This document shows positions 12,535 through 35,486 of a stretch of 64,000 bases of DNA, in pieces (position 1 is the first letter of the stretch; every line of letters begins with the position of its first letter). The stretch covers positions 620,001 through 684,000 of the forward strand of contig NZ_VSKK01000001.1 of the NCBI RefSeq assembly GCF_008086205.1, in the 5' to 3' direction. Origin of the DNA: Bizionia myxarmorum. Its GTDB lineage: Bacteria; Bacteroidota; Bacteroidia; Flavobacteriales; Flavobacteriaceae. The notes under the pieces are model-generated. The model was given only the letters and a program-made list of their open reading frames with translations. It did not search any database and was not told the DNA's origin. The position numbers were made by a program, and so were the translations under genes.

Positions 12535-15500
12535 GTGACGCAATTTGATACTATTTTACAGAAATTAGAAGCTTTTGTAAGGCGTTATTACACAAACGAA
12601 CTTATAAAAGGCAGCATACTATTTTTTGCTATTGGCTTTCTATATTTTCTATTAACACTTTTTGTAGAATATGTTTTTTGGTTGGACATAACTTCTAGAA
12701 CAGTATTATTTTGGATTTTTATAGGCGTAGAGGTCGCCTTTTTTATAAAATTTATCGCTATTCCTTTAGCGCATTTATTCAAGTTAAAAAAAGGAATTGA
12801 TTATATCCAAGCGTCTAAAATAATTGGTACACATTTCCCGGAAGTCAATGATAAATTGCTGAATGTTTTACAATTAAAACAGCATGGTGTGGAGTCTGAA
12901 CTTTTATTGGCAAGCATTAATCAAAAATCTGTGGAATTACAACCAGTTCCATTCAAACTAGCCATTAATTTCAAACAGAATTTACGCTATGTTAAATATG
13001 CGGCTATTCCCATTGTCATTATATTATTATCCGTTTTATCTGGAAAAATGAGTTGGTTTAGTGATAGCTATAATCGGGTTGTAAATCACAATACAGCTTA
13101 TGAACCGCCGGCACCTTTTCAGTTTTTTGTGGTTAATAATGATCTGACAGCTACTGAAAATAAAGACTTTATTTTACAAGTTAAAACGGTTGGTGACGTT
13201 ATTCCAGAGAATGCTAAAATTACCTATAATGACGAAACGTATTTTTTACAACAGAAATCTGCTGGCGACTTTGAATTCGTGTTTAGTAGGCTTAAAAGTG
13301 ATGTGGAGTTTAGATTGTCGGCCAATTCGGTTAACTCCAAACCGTATATCTTAAAAGTTGCTGAAGTGCCATCCATATTAGGTTTCGAAATGGTTCTGGA
13401 CTATCCGGATTATATCAAGAAAGCAGATGAAATTTTAACAGGAACTGGAAACGCGGTTGTTCCACAGGGAACTAAAGTGTCTTGGAAATTAAAGACAAAA
13501 TCTACGGAAAATGTAAAATTGTTTGCGAATGATACGATGCAATTTTCAGGTGAAAAGCAAGGTGATTTCAACTTAACAAAAACGGTTTACAATAAATTTG
13601 ATTATACCATTTCTACTAGTAATACATCCTTAAAAGATTATGAGCGTTTGGCATTTTCTATAGATGTTATTAAAGATGATTACCCGGAATTACATATTAA
13701 AATGGAAATTGATAGTATTAATCAACAAGATATGTATTTCTATGGGCAAGCCACCGATGATTATGGTTTGCGCAAAGTGCATTTGGTTTATTATCCGTCA
13801 GCAGACGACAAACAGATTAAAACAGAGCCAATTCCAATTTCCAATGGAAATGTGGGTGAATTTATCACGGCTTTCCCTAATAATTTAGAGTTAACCGAAG
13901 GTGTTAGCTATGATTTGTATTTTCAAGTATTTGATAATGACGCTATTAATAACTTTAAAAGTACCAAAAGTAAAATTTATTCCTTCCGAAAATTAACGAA
14001 GGACGAAACCGAGGATAAGCAACTGCGGCAGCAAAATGAAACCATAAAAGATTTAAATAAGTCTTTGGAAAAAATGGATGAACGTGAAAAAGAGTTGGAA
14101 GAATTCTCTAAAACGCAGAAAGAGAAATCTGAATTGAATTTTAATGATAAGAAGAAGTTTGAAAATTTCCTAAAGCGTCAAAAGCAGCAGGAGGAAATGA
14201 TGAAAAATTTCAACAAGAAATTGGAAGAAAATTTAAACGAATTTCAAAAGGAAAACAAGGAAGAAGATGCATTTAAAGAAGATATAAAGGAACGTTTAAA
14301 AGATAATGAAGAGCAACTTAAAAAGGATGAAAAACTTTTGGATGAGCTTGAAAAACTCCAAGAGAAAATTAACAAAGAAGATTTAACCGAAAAATTAGAG
14401 GAATTATCTAAACAAAATAAAAATCAGAAACGGAGTTTGGAACAATTATTGGAATTAACCAAGCGCTATTATGTGGCTAAAAAATTAGAAAAACTGCAGC
14501 AAGATTTAGAAAAATTAGCAGAAGAACAAGAGAAACTATCTGATGAAAAACCGGAGAATAATGATAAGGAATCTCAAGATACGTTAAATGAGAAGTTTGA
14601 AGATTTTAAAGAAGCCTTGGACGAGTTGCAAAAAGACAATAAGGAATTGAAACAACCTATGGATGTACCTCAAGATGAAAAGCAGGAGCAAGCCATTGAA
14701 AAGGATCAGCAGGAAGCTTCTGATGAGCTAGGTGAGAAGGAAGAAAATGAGGAGCAGAATCAAGAGGATGATGCGAAGAAAAATCAAGAAAAAGCGCAGA
14801 AAAAACAGAAACAGGCCGCCCAAAAAATGAAACAAATGGGCGAGAAAATGAAAATCGCTATGCAAGCTGGCGGTGGAGAACAAATGGAAGAAGACTTGAA
14901 AATGCTGCGTCAAATTTTGGATAATTTATTGTTATTTTCATTTGATCAGGAAAATTTAATGGATCGTTTTAAAACTATAGAAATAAACCATAATAAATAT
15001 GCAACGTATTTACGCAAACAAAACGATTTAAAAGAGCATTTCTCGCATATTGACGATAGTTTGTTTGCATTGTCTTTGCGTCAGCCTAAACTGTCCGAAA
15101 CGGTGAATAAGGAGATTTCAGAAGTGTTTTTTAATATCGATAAATCCTTGGATCAATTTTCGGAAAATCAATTATATGAAGGTATTGCTCGACAACAATA
15201 CACCATTACGGCGGCCAATAATTTAGCCGATTTTTTAAGTGATATTATGAATCAGATGCAAAATCAAATGCAAATGCAAGCGTCTGGTTCTGGTAGTGGT
15301 GGAAAACCACAGCAAGGTTTACCTGATATTATTATGAGCCAAGAAGAGCTGAATAAGCAAATGAAGGACGGTATGAAGAAAAGTGATCAGGGCCAACCTA
15401 AAGATGAAGGTGAAAAAGGTGAAATGGGCGAAAAAGGAAAGGAAAAAGGCGAAAAGCCTGGTGAAGAGGGCAAAAGTGGCAAGGAAGGAAAGTCGGGTAA

Positions 15501-24389: not shown

Positions 24390-25367
24390 ATGCAAAAAAT
24401 GTTTCTTGCCGCCATGGCTTTACTTCTAATTACAGCTTGTAACGATGGCAATTCTTCTAATAAACGTATTCTTTCGGAATCTTCAGGAAAAATCAATAAT
24501 TTATCGGTAGTTGTCGATAATGATTTATGGGAAGGTAGTGTTGGTGAAACTATCAGAAATATTTTAGCGGCACCTGTTCATGGCTTGCCACAAGATGAAC
24601 CGCTATTTATTTTAAGTCAAATTCCACCACTTGTTTTTACCGATTTTGCACAGAAGAGCAGAATTGTTTTAAAAATTGAAAAAAGTGATAAGCCGAATGT
24701 GAAAATCGCTAATAATGTGTTTGCTAGACCGCAACGTGTTGTGGTTGTTTCAGGAGGTAGTGAAGAAGAAATTTCTCAACAATTAACGTTGCATGCTGAT
24801 CAAATAGTAATGGCTTTAAAAAACGAGGAAATAAAGGAACAGCAGCGTCGTATTAAAATTGCGCCTCATACCAATAATACAATTAAAAAGAAATTAGGCG
24901 TTAGTATTACTTTTCCATCGGCATATAGAATTGCTTCGGAAGACGGAAAATTCTACTGGATTCGTAAAGATATAACGACTGGAACCACCAATATTTTATT
25001 ATATGAATTGCCATACGGAAGTATTAAGGACAATGATAGTTTGGTGAGTCAAATAATTAAAGTCCGCGATTCCATAGGTAAAGCCCATATTCCTGGACCG
25101 TTAGATGGATCCTATATGGTAACAGAAGATGCGTACACACCATTTTTAGCAAAAACAACTATTGATGATAAGCTTGCATTTGAAACACGAGGAATTTGGG
25201 ATGTCAAAAACGCTTTTATGTCTGGACCATTTGTAAATTATGTGATAGATGATGTAAGCAATAGTCGACTTTTAGTTGTTGAAGGCTTTGCGTTTGCACC
25301 ATCTGTAGACAAGCGCGACTATATGTTTGAATTAGAAGCTATAATCAAATCCATAGAATTTAAGTAA
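24390..25367 (+). CDS. DUF4837 family lipoprotein
   Basis: The 325-residue protein has a lipoprotein signal (MQKMFLAAMALLLITAC, Cys17). The mature region matches the DUF4837 pattern: NNLSVVVDNDLWEGSVGE near residue 36 and RIKIAPHTNNTIKKKLGVSI near 158. The family is restricted mainly to Bacteroidota and its role is unknown. It is preceded by the MltD-like gene at 22 bp spacing and followed by a strong hairpin, suggesting a two-gene envelope unit. Confidence 0.85.
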   Translation: MQKMFLAAMALLLITACNDGNSSNKRILSESSGKINNLSVVVDNDLWEGSVGETIRNILAAPVHGLPQDEPLFILSQIPPLVFTDFAQKSRIVLKIEKSDKPNVKIANNVFARPQRVVVVSGGSEEEISQQLTLHADQIVMALKNEEIKEQQRRIKIAPHTNNTIKKKLGVSITFPSAYRIASEDGKFYWIRKDITTGTTNILLYELPYGSIKDNDSLVSQIIKVRDSIGKAHIPGPLDGSYMVTEDAYTPFLAKTTIDDKLAFETRGIWDVKNAFMSGPFVNYVIDDVSNSRLLVVEGFAFAPSVDKRDYMFELEAIIKSIEFK

Positions 25368-25740: not shown

Positions 25741-26610
25741 ATGGCTAATAAAAAGAAGAAACCCAGAAAGTTCACCAAGAAACTGCTCAATAAGTATCGT
25801 TTGGTTATTTTAAATGAGGATACCTTTGAAGAGCGTATTTCTTTAAAATTAACGCGACTTAATGTGTTTGTTTTATTGTCATTATCTACCATATTTTTGG
25901 TTGTTGCCACGACTATTTTAATTGCCTTTACATCGCTTCGGGAATACATTCCGGGCTATTCATCTGTTGCCCTTAAAAAACGTGCTACAGAATTGAACTA
26001 TAAAACAGATTCCTTACAACAAGTAATAGCCATAAACGAGCGCTACTTTACATCCATTAAAAAAGTGCTATATGGTGAAGTAAGCAAAATAGATTTTAAT
26101 AAAGATTCTATTATTGAAGCTACCAGACAGGAAGCCAAAACTTTTGATTTATCGCCTTCTGAAGAAGATTCCATATTACGAGAGCGCGTTAAAAAAGAGG
26201 ATAAATATAATTTGTTTGAATCGGCAAAACTCAATACCAGTTTTATATTATTTCCGCCAGTTTCAGGTGAAATCTCACAAGAATATAATGTGAAAGAAAA
26301 ACATTTTGCCGTGGATATTGTTGCTGAAAAAGATACACCCGTAAAAGCAACTGCAGATGGTACCGTAATTTTTGCAGACTGGACTACCGAAGCTGGTTAC
26401 GTTATTATTTTAGAACACAGTCAGAGCCTAATTTCCGTTTATAAGCACAATGCTTTATTAACAAAAACCCAAGGCGATATTGTTACGGCTGGCGAAGTTA
26501 TTGCCACCACTGGAAATACAGGCTTAATGACGACTGGACCGCACTTACATTTTGAACTGTGGAGTGATGGTTACCCAATTAATCCAACTAATTTTATAGA
26601 TTTTAAATAA
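25741..26610 (+). CDS. M23 family metallopeptidase, membrane-anchored
   Basis: M23 enzymes cut peptide cross-links in peptidoglycan or act as activators of amidases. The 289-residue protein has a basic N terminus and one membrane helix (about residues 47-70). A helical linker follows (about 80-170). The LytM domain has HFAVDI (about 187-192, His and Asp ligands) and GPHLHFELW near 268 with the HxH motif. The start is taken as ATG 25741; a GTG three codons earlier lies in a possible promoter. The stop overlaps the next ATG by one base (TAATG). Confidence 0.9.
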   Translation: MANKKKKPRKFTKKLLNKYRLVILNEDTFEERISLKLTRLNVFVLLSLSTIFLVVATTILIAFTSLREYIPGYSSVALKKRATELNYKTDSLQQVIAINERYFTSIKKVLYGEVSKIDFNKDSIIEATRQEAKTFDLSPSEEDSILRERVKKEDKYNLFESAKLNTSFILFPPVSGEISQEYNVKEKHFAVDIVAEKDTPVKATADGTVIFADWTTEAGYVIILEHSQSLISVYKHNALLTKTQGDIVTAGEVIATTGNTGLMTTGPHLHFELWSDGYPINPTNFIDFK

Positions 26611-28112
26611 TGTTTTCACTAAAAGCCCTATTGGCGAAACCATTTGCCAAGTATATTGTAAAGAAAGCGCAAAAGTGGATTGATAATCCTATTGATACTC
26701 AAAAACAAGTGTTTGAAGAGCTTATTAGTGATGCCGCGTCCACAGCATTTGGAACCGATCATGATTTTTTGAGTATTAAGAATCACGCTGATTTTGTAAA
26801 GCGTGTTCCAATTCGTGATTACGAAGAATTAAAACCCTACGTAGACCGCATGGTTGCCGGTGAATCTGATGTTTTATGGAAAGGAAAACCACTTTATTTT
26901 GCCAAAACATCGGGAACCACATCTGGGGCTAAATACATTCCCTTAACAAAAGAAAGTATGCCAACGCATATTGCAGCAGCAAGGAATGCTATTTTAACTT
27001 ATATTCATGAAACTGGGAATGCAGATTTTGTATCGGGTAAAATGATTTTCTTACAAGGAAGCCCTGTTTTAGAGGAACAAAATGGCATTCAATTAGGGCG
27101 TTTATCAGGAATTGTAGCGCATTTTGTGCCACAGTATTTGCAGAAAAACCGCATGCCTTCTTGGGAAACAAATTGTATAGATGACTGGGAAACCAAAGTG
27201 GAGGCTATTGTAGAAGAAACGCTTCCTGAAAATATGACAGTTATTTCAGGGATTCCGTCTTGGGTGCAAATGTATTTTGAGAGAATTCAAGAGAAAACAG
27301 GACAGAACGTAGGAGATGTTTTTAAAAACTTCAATCTCTTTATTTTTGGAGGTGTTAATTATGAACCCTATCGCGCTAAATTTGAAACTTTAATAGGTCG
27401 GAAAGTAGATAGTATTGAATTATATCCAGCTAGTGAAGGTTTTTTCGCCTATCAAGATAAACAAAGTGAAAAAGGCATGTTGTTACTTTTAAATTCAGGA
27501 ATTTTTTATGAATTTGTAGTTGCAGAAACGTTTTTTAATGAAAATCCTATTCGTTTAACTTTAAAAGATGTTGAAATTGGCGTTAATTACGTGATGATTA
27601 TTTCCACAAATGCCGGACTTTGGGCTTACAATGTAGGCGATACCGTTATGTTTACGTCAACTAAACCATACCGTGTTATAGTTTCAGGACGAATCACACA
27701 TTTTATTTCCGCTTTTGGTGAACATGTTATTGGAAAAGAAGTGGAACACTCTTTACAAGAAGCCATAAAAGAAACGGATTTTCAAATTTCAGAATTTACC
27801 GTAGCACCGCAAATAAATCCAGAATCGGGTTTACCTTTTCATGAGTGGTTTATAGAATTTGAAAATCAAATTGAAGATGTTTCACAATTAGCAGCGAAAA
27901 TTGATGCAGCTTTACAAAATCAAAATAGCTATTATTTCGACCTCATAAAAGGGAAGGTTTTACAACCTTTAAAAATAACAATGGTAGCTAAAAATGGCTT
28001 TCAAGATTATATGAAATCCATAGGAAAATTAGGTGGTCAGAACAAATTACCTCGTTTATCCAATGATCGTAAAATAGCAGATAAAATCTACGATTTGAAT
28101 TTGATTAAATAA
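26610..28112 (+). CDS. GH3 auxin-responsive promoter family protein
   Basis: The 500-residue protein has the GH3 pattern: FAKTSGTTSGAKYIPLTKESM near residue 91 (the phosphate-binding motif of the ANL-type adenylating superfamily), FGGVNYEPYRAKFE near 248 and LYPASEGFFAYQ near 271. GH3 proteins in plants conjugate amino acids to acyl acids. Bacterial homologues have unknown substrates. Its start overlaps the M23 stop (TAATG), so it belongs to that operon. Confidence 0.85.
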   Translation: MFSLKALLAKPFAKYIVKKAQKWIDNPIDTQKQVFEELISDAASTAFGTDHDFLSIKNHADFVKRVPIRDYEELKPYVDRMVAGESDVLWKGKPLYFAKTSGTTSGAKYIPLTKESMPTHIAAARNAILTYIHETGNADFVSGKMIFLQGSPVLEEQNGIQLGRLSGIVAHFVPQYLQKNRMPSWETNCIDDWETKVEAIVEETLPENMTVISGIPSWVQMYFERIQEKTGQNVGDVFKNFNLFIFGGVNYEPYRAKFETLIGRKVDSIELYPASEGFFAYQDKQSEKGMLLLLNSGIFYEFVVAETFFNENPIRLTLKDVEIGVNYVMIISTNAGLWAYNVGDTVMFTSTKPYRVIVSGRITHFISAFGEHVIGKEVEHSLQEAIKETDFQISEFTVAPQINPESGLPFHEWFIEFENQIEDVSQLAAKIDAALQNQNSYYFDLIKGKVLQPLKITMVAKNGFQDYMKSIGKLGGQNKLPRLSNDRKIADKIYDLNLIK

Positions 28113-28123
28113 TAGTATATTTG
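28095..28123 (+). promoter_or_regulatory. Promoter of the DUF6909 gene
   Basis: TTG (28095-28097), an 18-bp spacer and TATATTTG (28116-28123) give a textbook Bacteroidota promoter. The -7 box ends 17 bp before the ATG at 28141. The -33 element lies inside the end of the GH3 gene. Confidence 0.65.
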
Positions 28124-28140: not shown

Positions 28141-29835
28141 ATGAATAAGAAAAAGCATCATGCTAGAACGAGAGCCCAAGAAAGCTCAAATGCGATTGAA
28201 AGAATGTATATTACCATGAGACATCTATTTAATCGTGGTTTCTATAAGCCTATGGGTGTTTCAGGTGAAACGCTTCGTGAGGCTTTGTTGCTTTTAAGGC
28301 CTGAAATTTACGGTTCTATAGTTGATGAAAAAGCAGAACTAGAAGGTCTTTTATATGTTGTAGACCGTTTACCTCAAGGTATAGAAGAATGCATGTTTAT
28401 TAATTTAACAAGTGATGAAGGTTATAGTAATTCACACTTTAAGCCTATCATTCCTCCAAAAAGACGAAGAAATTGTTATCGTATTGACGATGAACAAATG
28501 AATATTGAAATTACCCGTGGACGTTCAGAAATCTATGATATTTTAACGCATTTAACCTTTATGTTTGTGGAATCTCACAAAATTAGTAAACGTGTTTTAA
28601 TTGATGAATCGGGCGGTACTACTCGCGATTGGATCAAATTAGAAAAAGCCGTTTTAGCCAATAAAAAGCTGACTCAAAATGAACGCGAAGTAGCCATTAC
28701 GCACACGGCAAATATTCTTGGTCGCACCTTTGATGAGTTGAGTTTTGTATATGGCCAATTTCAAACTCCAGAACAACCTGAACGTTTATTACATATTGTA
28801 TATTGGTTAGGCAAATTAGCAATTGAAGAAGTTATCAATAATAATAAACGCACTATTACCTTTAGTCCCGTTTTAAGAGAGCGACTTGGTCACCATATTC
28901 ACGGTGAAATTTGGGCAGATAACATTAAAAATACCCTTTATAAAAATGATCTTTTAAAAAGACCTATTCATATTATTAGTGCCAATATGCACAGTGTTAT
29001 GAATACGCTTTATACACCAACGGCTTTAAAAAGTATGCTGGCTAAAAAGACCATATTTCAGGTTTATGAAGAATTAAGTAAAAAAGAAAATGAAACGCTT
29101 CGAGATAAGGTAACCAATCAAGCATTGCAAAATGGGATGATTTATATTCCTGATGCATCGGGAACCAATATAGATGTTCAAATTTTTGATACGGCAAAAT
29201 TAGACTTATCGAAAACAGATTTAGATATTCATGCAACAGATGAAAAATCTGAAATGCCTATTATTTTTGTAATGGATTATGCCTTTGGCGAACAAGCTTA
29301 TGAAACCATTGACGAATTGCTAAAACCAGCATTAATTGATAGTAAAAGTATTCATTTAAACATCGCGTCTGTTTCTATAATGGGTAAAGCCGGAATTTTA
29401 GAAGGTGGAAAAGGTGATATTATGATACCATCTGCCCATATTTTTGAAGGCACAGCAGATAATTACCCATTTGTAAATGAGTTATCCAAAGCTGATTTTG
29501 AAGGTGATGGATTAGCCGTTTTTGAAGGTTCTATGATAACTGTTTTAGGAACTTCATTGCAAAATAAAGACATTTTAAAGTTTTTCTATAATTCTACTTG
29601 GCATGTTATAGGTTTAGAAATGGAAGGCGCTCATTATCAAAAAGCCATTCAGTCTGCTTCTAAAGTAAGAAAAACTATTAATCCAGACGTTAAAGTACGC
29701 TATGCCTATTACGCTAGTGATAATCCTTTAGAAACAGGCGGAACGCTTGCTTCAGGAGGATTAGGAACATCTGGTGTTAAACCAACCTATTTAATAACCC
29801 GAAAAATATTGCAACAAATCTTTAATAACCAGTAA
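28141..29835 (+). CDS. DUF6909-like protein with nucleoside-phosphorylase-like C terminus
   Basis: The 564-residue protein is not secreted. The N-terminal half (about 1-330) is helical and charged, with ILTHLTFMFVESHKI near 141. The C-terminal part resembles the phosphorylase/hydrolase superfamily: a Gly-rich stretch IMGKAGILEGGKGDIMIPS near residue 417, EMEGAH near residue 492 and YYASDNPLETGGTL near 523. In true nucleoside phosphorylases EMEGA carries the nucleoside-binding Glu. The family appears confined to Bacteroidota. The reaction is unknown; a nucleoside or nucleotide ligand is inferred. It has its own promoter. Confidence 0.7.
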   Translation: MNKKKHHARTRAQESSNAIERMYITMRHLFNRGFYKPMGVSGETLREALLLLRPEIYGSIVDEKAELEGLLYVVDRLPQGIEECMFINLTSDEGYSNSHFKPIIPPKRRRNCYRIDDEQMNIEITRGRSEIYDILTHLTFMFVESHKISKRVLIDESGGTTRDWIKLEKAVLANKKLTQNEREVAITHTANILGRTFDELSFVYGQFQTPEQPERLLHIVYWLGKLAIEEVINNNKRTITFSPVLRERLGHHIHGEIWADNIKNTLYKNDLLKRPIHIISANMHSVMNTLYTPTALKSMLAKKTIFQVYEELSKKENETLRDKVTNQALQNGMIYIPDASGTNIDVQIFDTAKLDLSKTDLDIHATDEKSEMPIIFVMDYAFGEQAYETIDELLKPALIDSKSIHLNIASVSIMGKAGILEGGKGDIMIPSAHIFEGTADNYPFVNELSKADFEGDGLAVFEGSMITVLGTSLQNKDILKFFYNSTWHVIGLEMEGAHYQKAIQSASKVRKTINPDVKVRYAYYASDNPLETGGTLASGGLGTSGVKPTYLITRKILQQIFNNQ

Positions 29836-29841
29836 TTAAAT

Positions 29842-30909
29842 ATGAACGAATATCCTCCAAAATCTGATCCACCAAACAACTCGGAAGAAGTTGATTTAGG
29901 TCAATTATTTAATGGAATTGGAAATGCCTTTAGCAGATTAATTAATTTTATAGTTTCCATCTTTGTAGCCATATTTTCGGTTATTATTTATACGTTAAGA
30001 GCGTTAATAGTAAACATTAAAATAATTATTGTAGTCATGGTTGTTGCAGCCGTCATTGGTTATGCCTGGGAGCGCACTCGGCCAGCAGTCTATAGCTCAT
30101 CTATGTTAATAAGACCCTATTTTGAATCTAAATTTCAGTTTGTTACTAATATTGGTTATTACAATGCACTACTGAATAATGGAAATTATGGCGTAATTGC
30201 CGATTTATTCGCAATAAATGAAGAAGAAGCTGCAGCTATAAATGGTTTTGAAATTGAACCAGGACCAGAAACAGAGAACGAAAAAATAGTTCAGTATAAC
30301 ACCTTTTTAAGTACTATGGATAGTACTATGACTCAGTCTATCAGTTACACTAAATTCATTGAGAACAGGAGTATTTATAGTGGTGATTTATTCCAAATAA
30401 CGGTACATTCCTATAAAAACGATATTTTCACGAAACTGGAGGAAGGCGTTACCAATTCCTTTACGAACTCCTATTCATTAAAAAGAATGCAAAAGCGAGA
30501 TTCCTTGCTTACAATTCAAAAAAATAACATTGTTTCACAACTAACTCAAGTAGATTCTTTACAGAAAATTTATATTAAAGTTCTGGAAAAACAGTCAAAT
30601 TCACAGTCAAATGAGATTAGTTTTGGAGGTGAAGGTTTTTCCTTAAGTAAAGATAAACCCAACACACGAGAATACGATTTATTAGAAAAGGAAATTACTT
30701 TAAGAAATGAATTAAGAGAGCTACAAGAGAAAAAAGTAGATGAAGATGTGTTTTTTGATGTTATTTCAAATTTCCAAAAAATAGGAAAGAAAACCGTTAA
30801 ATGGCAACAACGCTATTCTATTTTGTTCCCAATATTTGCTTTTATACTACTGTGTTTAATTTATGCAACCAGAAAAATAGTTAAGTACGTTAAAAGTTAT
30901 GAAGCATAA
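29842..30909 (+). CDS. Wzz-like chain-length determinant protein
   Basis: The 355-residue protein has an N-terminal double hydrophobic stretch (about residues 32-78) and a C-terminal membrane helix (about 326-344), with a large extracytoplasmic helical part between (about 90-320, coiled-coil prone). This two-helix arrangement is that of Wzz/polysaccharide co-polymerases, which set glycan chain length. No tyrosine kinase domain is attached. It opens the polysaccharide locus, overlaps rfbB by 11 bp and lies 6 bp after the DUF6909 stop. Confidence 0.7.
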   Translation: MNEYPPKSDPPNNSEEVDLGQLFNGIGNAFSRLINFIVSIFVAIFSVIIYTLRALIVNIKIIIVVMVVAAVIGYAWERTRPAVYSSSMLIRPYFESKFQFVTNIGYYNALLNNGNYGVIADLFAINEEEAAAINGFEIEPGPETENEKIVQYNTFLSTMDSTMTQSISYTKFIENRSIYSGDLFQITVHSYKNDIFTKLEEGVTNSFTNSYSLKRMQKRDSLLTIQKNNIVSQLTQVDSLQKIYIKVLEKQSNSQSNEISFGGEGFSLSKDKPNTREYDLLEKEITLRNELRELQEKKVDEDVFFDVISNFQKIGKKTVKWQQRYSILFPIFAFILLCLIYATRKIVKYVKSYEA

Positions 30910-34271: not shown

Positions 34272-35058
34272 GCATTTACAAATTGCCATAGAATCATCTT
34301 TAAAAGCTGGAATAGCCATAATGCAAGTTTATGAAACCGCTTTCAACGTCGAAACTAAAGATGATAATTCGCCTTTAACAGAAGCGGATATGCAGGCAAA
34401 TACGATTATTAATTCCTATTTACTTCCTACGCAAATCTCTATAATTTCTGAAGAAAATAAACAAACAGATTATAGCATCAGAAAAAATTGGAATACCTGT
34501 TGGATTGTAGATCCTGTAGATGGAACCAAGGAATTTGTAAAGCGCAATGGTGAATTTACTGTAAATATAGCTTTAGTTACAAACGGAAAACCGGTTTTAG
34601 GCGTTATTTATGTGCCCGCAACCAAAACGCTTTATTATGCAGAAGTAGATTCAAATAAAGCATTTAAAGCGGATTTGAAATCTCATGACACATCTTTTGA
34701 GCAGGTTTTAAAGTTAGCGGAAAAACTTCAACCTAAAAAGAAGAAATCGAAAGTAATTCAAGTGGTTGGCAGTCGTTCCCACATGAATAAGGAGACATTA
34801 GATTTTATAGAAAGTTTGAAATCGGAAGGAAAAGATGTAGAAATTGTTTCTAAAGGAAGTTCTTTAAAATTTTGTTTATTGGCAGAAGGTTTAGCAGATG
34901 TATACCCGCGTTTTGCGCCTACAATGGAATGGGATACAGCGGCAGGACACGCTATTTGTAATGCAGTCGGTTTGGAAGTTATTTCAACAGAAACCAAAAA
35001 GCCACTTGTTTATAATAAGGAAAATTTATTGAATAGTCACTTTTTAGTTGGCGTATAA
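34264..35058 (+). CDS. cysQ: 3'(2'),5'-bisphosphate nucleotidase
   Basis: CysQ removes the 3'-phosphate of PAP (and PAPS), recycling the by-product of sulfotransferases or PAPS reductase. The 264-residue protein has the lithium-sensitive phosphatase motifs: SPLTEADMQAN (about 36-46), the metal site WIVDPVDGTKEF (about 80-91) and WDTAAGHAI near 223. It overlaps rfbD by 8 bp and its stop touches the next ATG (TAATG). Confidence 0.93.
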   Translation: MNKHLQIAIESSLKAGIAIMQVYETAFNVETKDDNSPLTEADMQANTIINSYLLPTQISIISEENKQTDYSIRKNWNTCWIVDPVDGTKEFVKRNGEFTVNIALVTNGKPVLGVIYVPATKTLYYAEVDSNKAFKADLKSHDTSFEQVLKLAEKLQPKKKKSKVIQVVGSRSHMNKETLDFIESLKSEGKDVEIVSKGSSLKFCLLAEGLADVYPRFAPTMEWDTAAGHAICNAVGLEVISTETKKPLVYNKENLLNSHFLVGV

Positions 35059-35486
35059 TGAAAGACAAATCCTATAGAAGACATCTTGCCAAAACCATTA
35101 CGTGGCGTTTTATAGGAACCATGGACACCATTATTTTGTCATGGATTATCACTGGTAATCCATTTATAGGTTTTAAATTAGGCCTTGCTGAAGTGAGTAC
35201 GAAATCAATCCTGTATTATCTGCATGAACGTGTTTGGTATAAAATAAACTTAACCAAAGAAGGTGTTACATTAGAAAGTAAAAAGAGGCATTTAGCCAAA
35301 ACCATAACCTGGCGACTAATAGGTACTTTAGATACTATGACGTTGGCTTGGATTATTTCTGGAAATCCATTGGCTGCTTTACAGATTGGTTTAGCTGAAG
35401 TGTTTACTAAAATGATTTTATATTATTTTCATGAACGTGTTTGGTACAGGGTTAATTTTGGTTTACCAACGCGTAAAAACCTATAA
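35058..35486 (+). CDS. Tandem DUF2061 membrane protein
   Basis: A 142-residue protein with two DUF2061 units, the first about residues 5-66 and the second about 77-136. Each has the pattern HLAKTITWRxxGTxDT followed by two hydrophobic stretches and YYxHERVWY. The repeats are clearly related, indicating an internal duplication. DUF2061 is a small membrane family of unknown function. Its position between cysQ and cysC, with no spacer, points to a role linked to sulfate use. Confidence 0.85.
   Translation: MKDKSYRRHLAKTITWRFIGTMDTIILSWIITGNPFIGFKLGLAEVSTKSILYYLHERVWYKINLTKEGVTLESKKRHLAKTITWRLIGTLDTMTLAWIISGNPLAALQIGLAEVFTKMILYYFHERVWYRVNFGLPTRKNL

Follow-up and report, generated by a model that had tools for sequence, protein, structure and literature searches.

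AMP nucleosidase regulates AMP levels in other bacteria (PMC9584410), and the enzyme of the E. coli type, Amn (TIGR01717; structures 1t8r/1t8s, 2guw and 7uwq), is composed of an N-terminal domain followed by a phosphorylase-type C-terminal domain. A report on Klebsiella Amn (PMC9584410) assigns the surroundings of base and sugar to N205, W383, M404, E405 and D428, and the phosphate contacts to R381 and K436 together with H188/Y189 from the opposite chain; it states that more distant homologues of known structure keep only M404, E405 and D428. A short AMP nucleosidase is found in Bacteroidota (TIGR01721, 'AMN-like'; PDB 1ybf, from Bacteroides thetaiotaomicron). It is a protein of about 256 aa devoid of an N-terminal domain, and its function in Bacteroidota is taken here solely from annotation and from the title of the 1ybf structure. 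Most enzymes of PF01048 (purine nucleoside and uridine phosphorylases, MTA/SAH nucleosidase) are likewise single-domain proteins, of about 230-290 aa.

The window analysed here is a 64,000-nucleotide stretch of the Bizionia myxarmorum genome. At 28141..29835 on its forward strand lies an ORF of 564 aa with an ATG start, as given in the preliminary description. This ORF is a true gene, because its product matches Pfam family PF21850 (DUF6909; E 2e-64, 218.3 bits over two stretches, for a gathering cut-off of 27), because a search of its own genome returned a single copy and because its relatives align over nearly their full length. This last point was established on the best 80 of 591 relatives, all of which (80/80) showed 72-94% identity to the window protein; among the matches listed, the closest named relative was Bizionia algoritergicola (94%). 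The window protein is a full member of PF21850, with no difference from it, and PF21850 is a family without assigned function. It was detected in 56 of the 395 genomes of our phylum sample, always above the family cut-off, and 52 of the 60 sampled genomes from the window's own family carried it. Elsewhere, two equal-scoring full copies were observed in one genome (G828), one at each end of a single 3.4-Mb contig, so that an assembly overlap is likely. Locus L007, whose contig is apparently G828:C2, contained pieces of a broken, inverted second DUF6909 gene at 13302-13990, near the contig end.

Searches against established models gave little for the window protein. NCBIfam returned no family at E values up to 1, nor up to 10, and the curated score of AMP nucleosidase (TIGR01717 or TIGR01721) was not reached; PF01048 (PNP_UDP_1, gathering cut-off 25.1 bits) gave no match at E values up to 10. 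As the score tests for AMP nucleosidase and PF01048 both failed, DUF6909 is treated below as a family that may work like these enzymes and not as a member of theirs. Sequence searches of the PDB yielded chance matches only, whether the single protein or a 35-row family alignment was the query. No DUF6909 relative was found on the viral contigs searched, and no PADLOC model matched the window protein at E values up to 1, so that nothing points to a role in defence. The terms DUF6909 and PF21850 were not found in the literature searched, and papers on AMP nucleosidase in connection with Bacteroidetes, Flavobacteri- or adenylate energy charge included none on DUF6909, judging by their titles.

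A full-length AlphaFold2 monomer model was obtained from 79 aligned sequences, namely the window protein and 78 of the 80 relatives (L019 and L028, which have longer predicted N termini, were omitted), with a mean pLDDT of 78.8 and a pTM of 0.62. The preliminary description had deduced a phosphorylase-like C terminus from GKAG...GDIMIPS and EMEGA motifs, to be abandoned if a predicted structure lacked the phosphorylase fold. Both motifs are present, at residues 415-431 and 493-497, and the fold was found in the model. VIA-align superposed model residues 246-564 on purine nucleoside phosphorylases, uridine phosphorylases, MTA/SAH nucleosidases and futalosine hydrolase (Z 17.7-18.8, rmsd 2.6-3.7, 197-235 residues aligned), and many of these rows were tied, so that the fold does not choose a subfamily. 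A Foldseek search of the PDB placed the AMP nucleosidase of S. typhimurium (2guw) at ranks 1, 2 and 7 (E 1.7e-7 and 3.4e-7 for the first two); further AMP nucleosidases (7uwq and 1t8s) were included in the first 50 rows, and uridine and purine nucleoside phosphorylases, MTAN and futalosine hydrolase stood around and after 2guw. The whole-protein match to 2guw had an rmsd near 20 A, hence one domain is superposed at best. On the predicted model, it is close to certain that the fold of DUF6909 is that of the nucleoside phosphorylase/nucleosidase superfamily, with residues 256-564 (28906..29832, forward strand) as the phosphorylase/nucleosidase-type catalytic domain.

Since this catalytic domain starts near residue 256, the extra N-terminal part amounts to about 255 residues (28141..28905, forward strand). 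The two-part build and the N-terminal half of unknown fold suggested earlier were therefore retained, with a length corrected from 330 residues and a border shifted by about 75. Residues 1-257 were modelled alone by AlphaFold2 from an alignment of the window protein with 57 of the 80 N-terminal pieces (pLDDT 77.9, pTM 0.78), and the resulting domain was mostly helical with a few strands. No convincing match to this model was found in the PDB, the best Foldseek E value being 0.33 and the best VIA Z score 4.2. The N-terminal half did not match the N-terminal domain of Amn (AMNp_N) in Pfam, and this domain was not among the top structural matches listed for the model. A second, decayed phosphorylase domain was also considered for this half and discarded: uridine phosphorylases and 1ybf appeared at VIA Z scores of 3-4, which is too low, and none was present in the first 50 rows of Foldseek. 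Residues 1-60 are weakly predicted, so that a new N-terminal fold is no more than a possibility.

At the level of primary sequence, the link between DUF6909 and the phosphorylase superfamily is marginal. In a 35-row alignment of family members picked by hand for spread, 15 matched PF01048 weakly (best E 0.0015). Of the 22 top non-family matches obtained when 3837 ORFs were searched with a profile of the DUF6909 C-terminal part, 13 were superfamily members, which account for 67 of the 3673 non-family ORFs (hypergeometric 3e-18, a test that allows for the enrichment of this ORF set in superfamily members by targeted fetching). Purine nucleoside phosphorylases and AMP nucleosidases were intermixed among these matches. 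Comparison of profiles with hhalign gave probabilities of 0.7% for AMP nucleosidase, 1.9% for uridine phosphorylase-like proteins and 10.8% for purine nucleoside phosphorylase; when the C-terminal part was compared again, with 133 rows, the values were 2.3% (AMP nucleosidase) and 4.7% (purine nucleoside phosphorylase), the two uridine-phosphorylase sets consisting there of one sequence each. These profile alignments are shallow (effective number about 2-3), and hhalign thus neither favours nor rules out any subfamily.

Candidate catalytic residues were examined in 133 aligned rows, comprising the window protein and those of 161 family ORFs that are under 80% identity, some genomes being represented twice by a short and a long locus. 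Invariant in all 133 rows were H252, N282, E493-M494-E495 and S526-D527-N528-P529-L530, and H251 was conserved in 124. On the basis of motifs and strand order, by eye and not by superposition, N282 (28984..28986, just after strand 276-281), M494 and E495 (in 29617..29625, at the end of strand 489-493) and D527 (in 29716..29730, after strand 518-525) were placed on N205, M404, E405 and D428, which the Klebsiella report assigns to the base and sugar surroundings. The strand order of the AlphaFold2 model agrees with this placement, the EME and SD stretches were paired in the same way by hhalign, and E495 and D527, found in 133/133 rows, match the two acidic residues of the superfamily, in the EME stretch and after the last strand. 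H251-H252, in the stretch RLGHHIHG (28891..28896), were likewise placed by eye, from a similar RLxHH motif, as the putative counterpart of Amn H188-Y189.

Several motifs recall the short AMP nucleosidase of Bacteroidota, the two proteins being similar in GK-G-L ... GD ... P ... EGT ... EME/DME ... SD-x-P-L/M. The motif GKAGILEGGKGDIMIPS (residues 415-431, 29383..29433) resembles GKCGGLKKANNLGDYVLPI of that enzyme, a pairing made by hhalign at low probability, and the stretch GKAGILEGGKGDIMIPSAHIFEGTADNY resembles its GKCGGLKKANNLGDYVLPIAAIRGEGTSNEY. SDNPL of DUF6909 resembles SDKPL (the stretch with D428 in Amn) or SDQPM of AMP nucleosidases, and the pattern (S/T)D-x-P-(L/M) was found in all of 16 AMP nucleosidase-type sequences as well as in DUF6909. 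However, no significant profile match was obtained between TIGR01721 and DUF6909, which has Q-N-K/R-D in place of R-x-W-E, is 564 aa long and bears an N-terminal domain. The comparison with Amn of the E. coli type was similar. Amn, a hexamer of D3 symmetry, has in common with DUF6909 the arrangement of an N-terminal domain and a phosphorylase-type C-terminal domain, and it provides the top Foldseek rows, but among the contacts named in the Klebsiella report R381, W383 and K436 had no clear DUF6909 counterparts in the motif alignment by eye. The R-N-W-E region of Amn reads Q-N-K/R-D there and no conserved Lys stands at the position of K436; no NCBIfam match links the two proteins, and no relationship between their N-terminal domains emerged among the structural matches listed. 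With N282, M494, E495 and D527 invariant and R381 and K436 lacking a clear match, DUF6909 seems to preserve the binding of base and ribose, whereas that of the phosphate would be at least rearranged. The PF01048 enzymes share the fold (Z 17.7-18.8) and the catalytic Glu/Asp positions with DUF6909.

The distribution of DUF6909 provides the strongest clue to its function. In the order of genome G076, 118 genomes were divided into 33 with DUF6909 only, 72 with TIGR01721 only, 2 with both and 11 with neither, which corresponds to 2 co-occurrences for 22 expected (Fisher p 1.8e-17). A partial TIGR01721 match below cut-off (G742) was scored as positive in this table, and a match of E 2.3e-7 (G757) as negative. 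The 11 genomes with neither gene include G767, G790, G801 and G812, as well as 7 for which the size was recorded (4.1 Mb for G715, 1.1-1.6 Mb for the rest). A different picture was given by the control phosphorylase TIGR01697, present in the same order in 31 of the 35 DUF6909 genomes and in 46 of the 83 others: its association with DUF6909 is positive, the opposite of the avoidance of TIGR01721. The only two genomes of the order that possess both DUF6909 and a full TIGR01721 gene (G718 and G794) would lend themselves to a comparison of how the two enzymes are regulated.

The same avoidance was seen in two further samples, in which TIGR01721 was counted only above its cut-off. The class sample (345 genomes) contained 26 genomes with DUF6909 and 224 with TIGR01721, none of them shared (p 2e-13); 11 of its 235 TIGR01721 matches were below cut-off, three of these in DUF6909 genomes (G000, G029 and G103, E 1.5e-4 to 4.5e-7). 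The relatives sample (99 genomes) contained 63 and 11, respectively, again without overlap (p 4.8e-6), and 31 of its 42 TIGR01721 matches were below cut-off (E 5e-8 to 1e-3), mostly in genomes that carry DUF6909; the weak match of the window's own genome is a uridine-phosphorylase-like gene. Neither gene was present in 25 of these 99 genomes, so that a genome does not always require either. A prediction was also borne out, since genome G402 of the window's own family, in which an AMN-like gene had been seen earlier, lacked DUF6909, and so did G856. Of 148 genomes sampled from the phylum, 72 had a TIGR01717 match, and none of these was among the DUF6909-positive genomes of the 395-genome sample. 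The genomes are related, and the p values of the large samples therefore overstate independence. However, genomes of both kinds occur inside families f1, f5, f8, f67, f111, f132 and f133, so that the avoidance is not only a matter of large clades, even if genera within families are still related. Shuffling within families f1, f8, f132 and f133 gave p values of 0.016, 0.008, 0.028 and 0.2, respectively (combined p 4e-4). DUF6909 and TIGR01721 are thus nearly mutually exclusive in our samples.

The gene surroundings were less instructive. In the window, DUF6909 follows an M23-GH3 pair, the GH3-type gene (26610-28112) ending 28 bases before it, and is followed after 6 bases by a gene that matches Wzz weakly (29842-30909; E 0.061, below the Pfam cut-off) and then by genes that, judged from their translations, are presumably rmlB, rmlA, rmlC and rmlD. 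This order recurs in most of the 80 Flavobacteriaceae-type loci, some of which stop at contig borders: the M23 gene was present in all 80, and at a distance of no more than 400 bp there was a GH3 homologue upstream in 74 and a Wzz-like gene in 54. The position at the border of a glycan locus noted in the preliminary description is accordingly valid for the window and for these loci, but not beyond them, as 15 of 20 further loci (L112-L131) had none of 12 window neighbours at E 1e-15, the other five (L122, L126-L129) keeping some. Neighbours in the distant loci, of which ten proteins were scanned, include glutamine synthetase III, M1 peptidase, methionine sulfoxide reductase, DEAD helicase and acyl-CoA dehydrogenase, and in L130 the gene adjoins a sugar transferase gene. 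The neighbourhood, which is not kept outside Flavobacteriaceae-type loci, was therefore rejected as a guide, and the glycan locus probably says little about the function of DUF6909.

The gene had also been credited with a strong promoter of its own. The word TATATTTG (TAnnTTTG), which we take to be the -7 motif of Bacteroidota promoters, lies at 28116..28123 on the forward strand, 25 nt before the ATG. Across the window as a whole, words of this type do not exceed chance (106 against 110 expected), but one was found 10-60 nt upstream of DUF6909 in 67 of the best 80 of 591 relatives, against about 4% expected from the density in the window, which makes a promoter of its own plausible. A sigma-70 scan gave no match upstream of the gene on the forward strand. 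Changing neighbours together with a kept TAnnTTTG element suggest a separately transcribed housekeeping gene, located at the edge of a glycan locus in one group only.

Our data combine a superfamily fold in the predicted model, invariant candidate catalytic residues and near mutual exclusion with AMP nucleosidase that does not extend to the control phosphorylase. DUF6909 is probably a second type of AMP nucleosidase, which hydrolyses AMP and has displaced the usual enzyme in Flavobacteriaceae and several other lineages, an identity to which the preliminary description made no reference and which is the new step of the present analysis. The following account of its substrate and reaction, of the roles of single residues, of its quaternary structure and of its N-terminal domain is inferred. 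DUF6909 would replace the usual AMP nucleosidase of Bacteroidota and cleave the N-glycosidic bond of AMP into adenine and ribose 5-phosphate, with water as the nucleophile. Adenine and ribose would be received in a pocket lined by N282, M494, E495 and D527, where, in line with the superfamily, D527 may act on the base and the ribose may be the target of E495. H251/H252, which could be contributed by an adjacent subunit, might bind the 5'-phosphate together with a basic residue such as K/R476, while the 255-residue N-terminal domain may regulate activity or assembly in place of that of E. coli-type Amn. More tentatively, DUF6909 could represent a separately evolved branch of the superfamily that gained the ability to hydrolyse 5'-monophosphates, with its own phosphate-binding residues and a regulatory domain of a fold absent from the PDB, and that has supplanted the usual enzyme repeatedly within Bacteroidota. 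If the proposal is true, a function would be provided for a family that 52 of 60 genomes sampled from the window's own family carry, and it would be explained how most such bacteria do without the AMP nucleosidase usual elsewhere. An enzyme would then have been displaced by another that shares its fold and brings along a new regulatory part for study.

The likeliest alternative is that DUF6909, while still a superfamily nucleosidase or phosphorylase, acts on a different substrate (for example MTA/SAH, a nucleoside 5'-monophosphate other than AMP, or an NAD-derived nucleotide), the avoidance of TIGR01721 reflecting lineage history. MTA/SAH nucleosidases and futalosine hydrolase do fit the model as well as any other structure (Z 17.7-18.1), sequence profiles pick no subfamily, and the phosphate contacts R381 and K436, as named in the Klebsiella report, are not obviously kept. 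This alternative is nevertheless less likely in our view, because the avoidance is specific, with TIGR01697 positively associated in the same 118 genomes, and because lineage history alone explains poorly the occurrence of both kinds of genomes inside the seven families listed above.

Two other explanations take the surroundings of the gene into account. The protein may no longer be an enzyme, its phosphorylase fold sensing a nucleotide and regulating other things, perhaps the adjoining cell-envelope functions. A large extra domain without known role would suit such a sensor, as would the conserved envelope-function neighbours in Flavobacteriaceae-type loci (GH3-type and Wzz-like, in the proportions given above), but full invariance, in 133/133 rows, of the residues placed on the catalytic site and the lack of window neighbours in 15 of the 20 further loci make it quite improbable. 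Least credible of all is a role within the dTDP-rhamnose/glycan locus, on a nucleotide sugar or a by-product. The location between the M23-GH3 pair and the Wzz-like and rmlBACD-type genes, an order common in Flavobacteriaceae-type loci, is what recommends it; unrelated neighbours elsewhere, with the exception of L130, and a conserved promoter-like element belonging to DUF6909 itself argue against it. A second type of AMP nucleosidase remains our preferred explanation.

Some additional features of the loci are worth recording. The GH3-type protein encoded at 26610-28112 resembles the lyso-ornithine lipid synthetase OlsH (NCBIfam, 375.9 bits, below the cut-off of 620). Upstream of DUF6909, seven of the 20 distant loci (L112-L116, L125 and L131) have a divergent gene of 731-733 aa; the one examined, from L113, encodes a type III glutamine synthetase. 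In the window, a DUF4837 gene (24390-25367, E 9e-99) has homologues in 71 of the 80 related loci, and an ORF of 142 aa at 35058-35486 is made of two similar tandem units of about 65 residues, each with the motif HLAKTITWR.IGT.DT.
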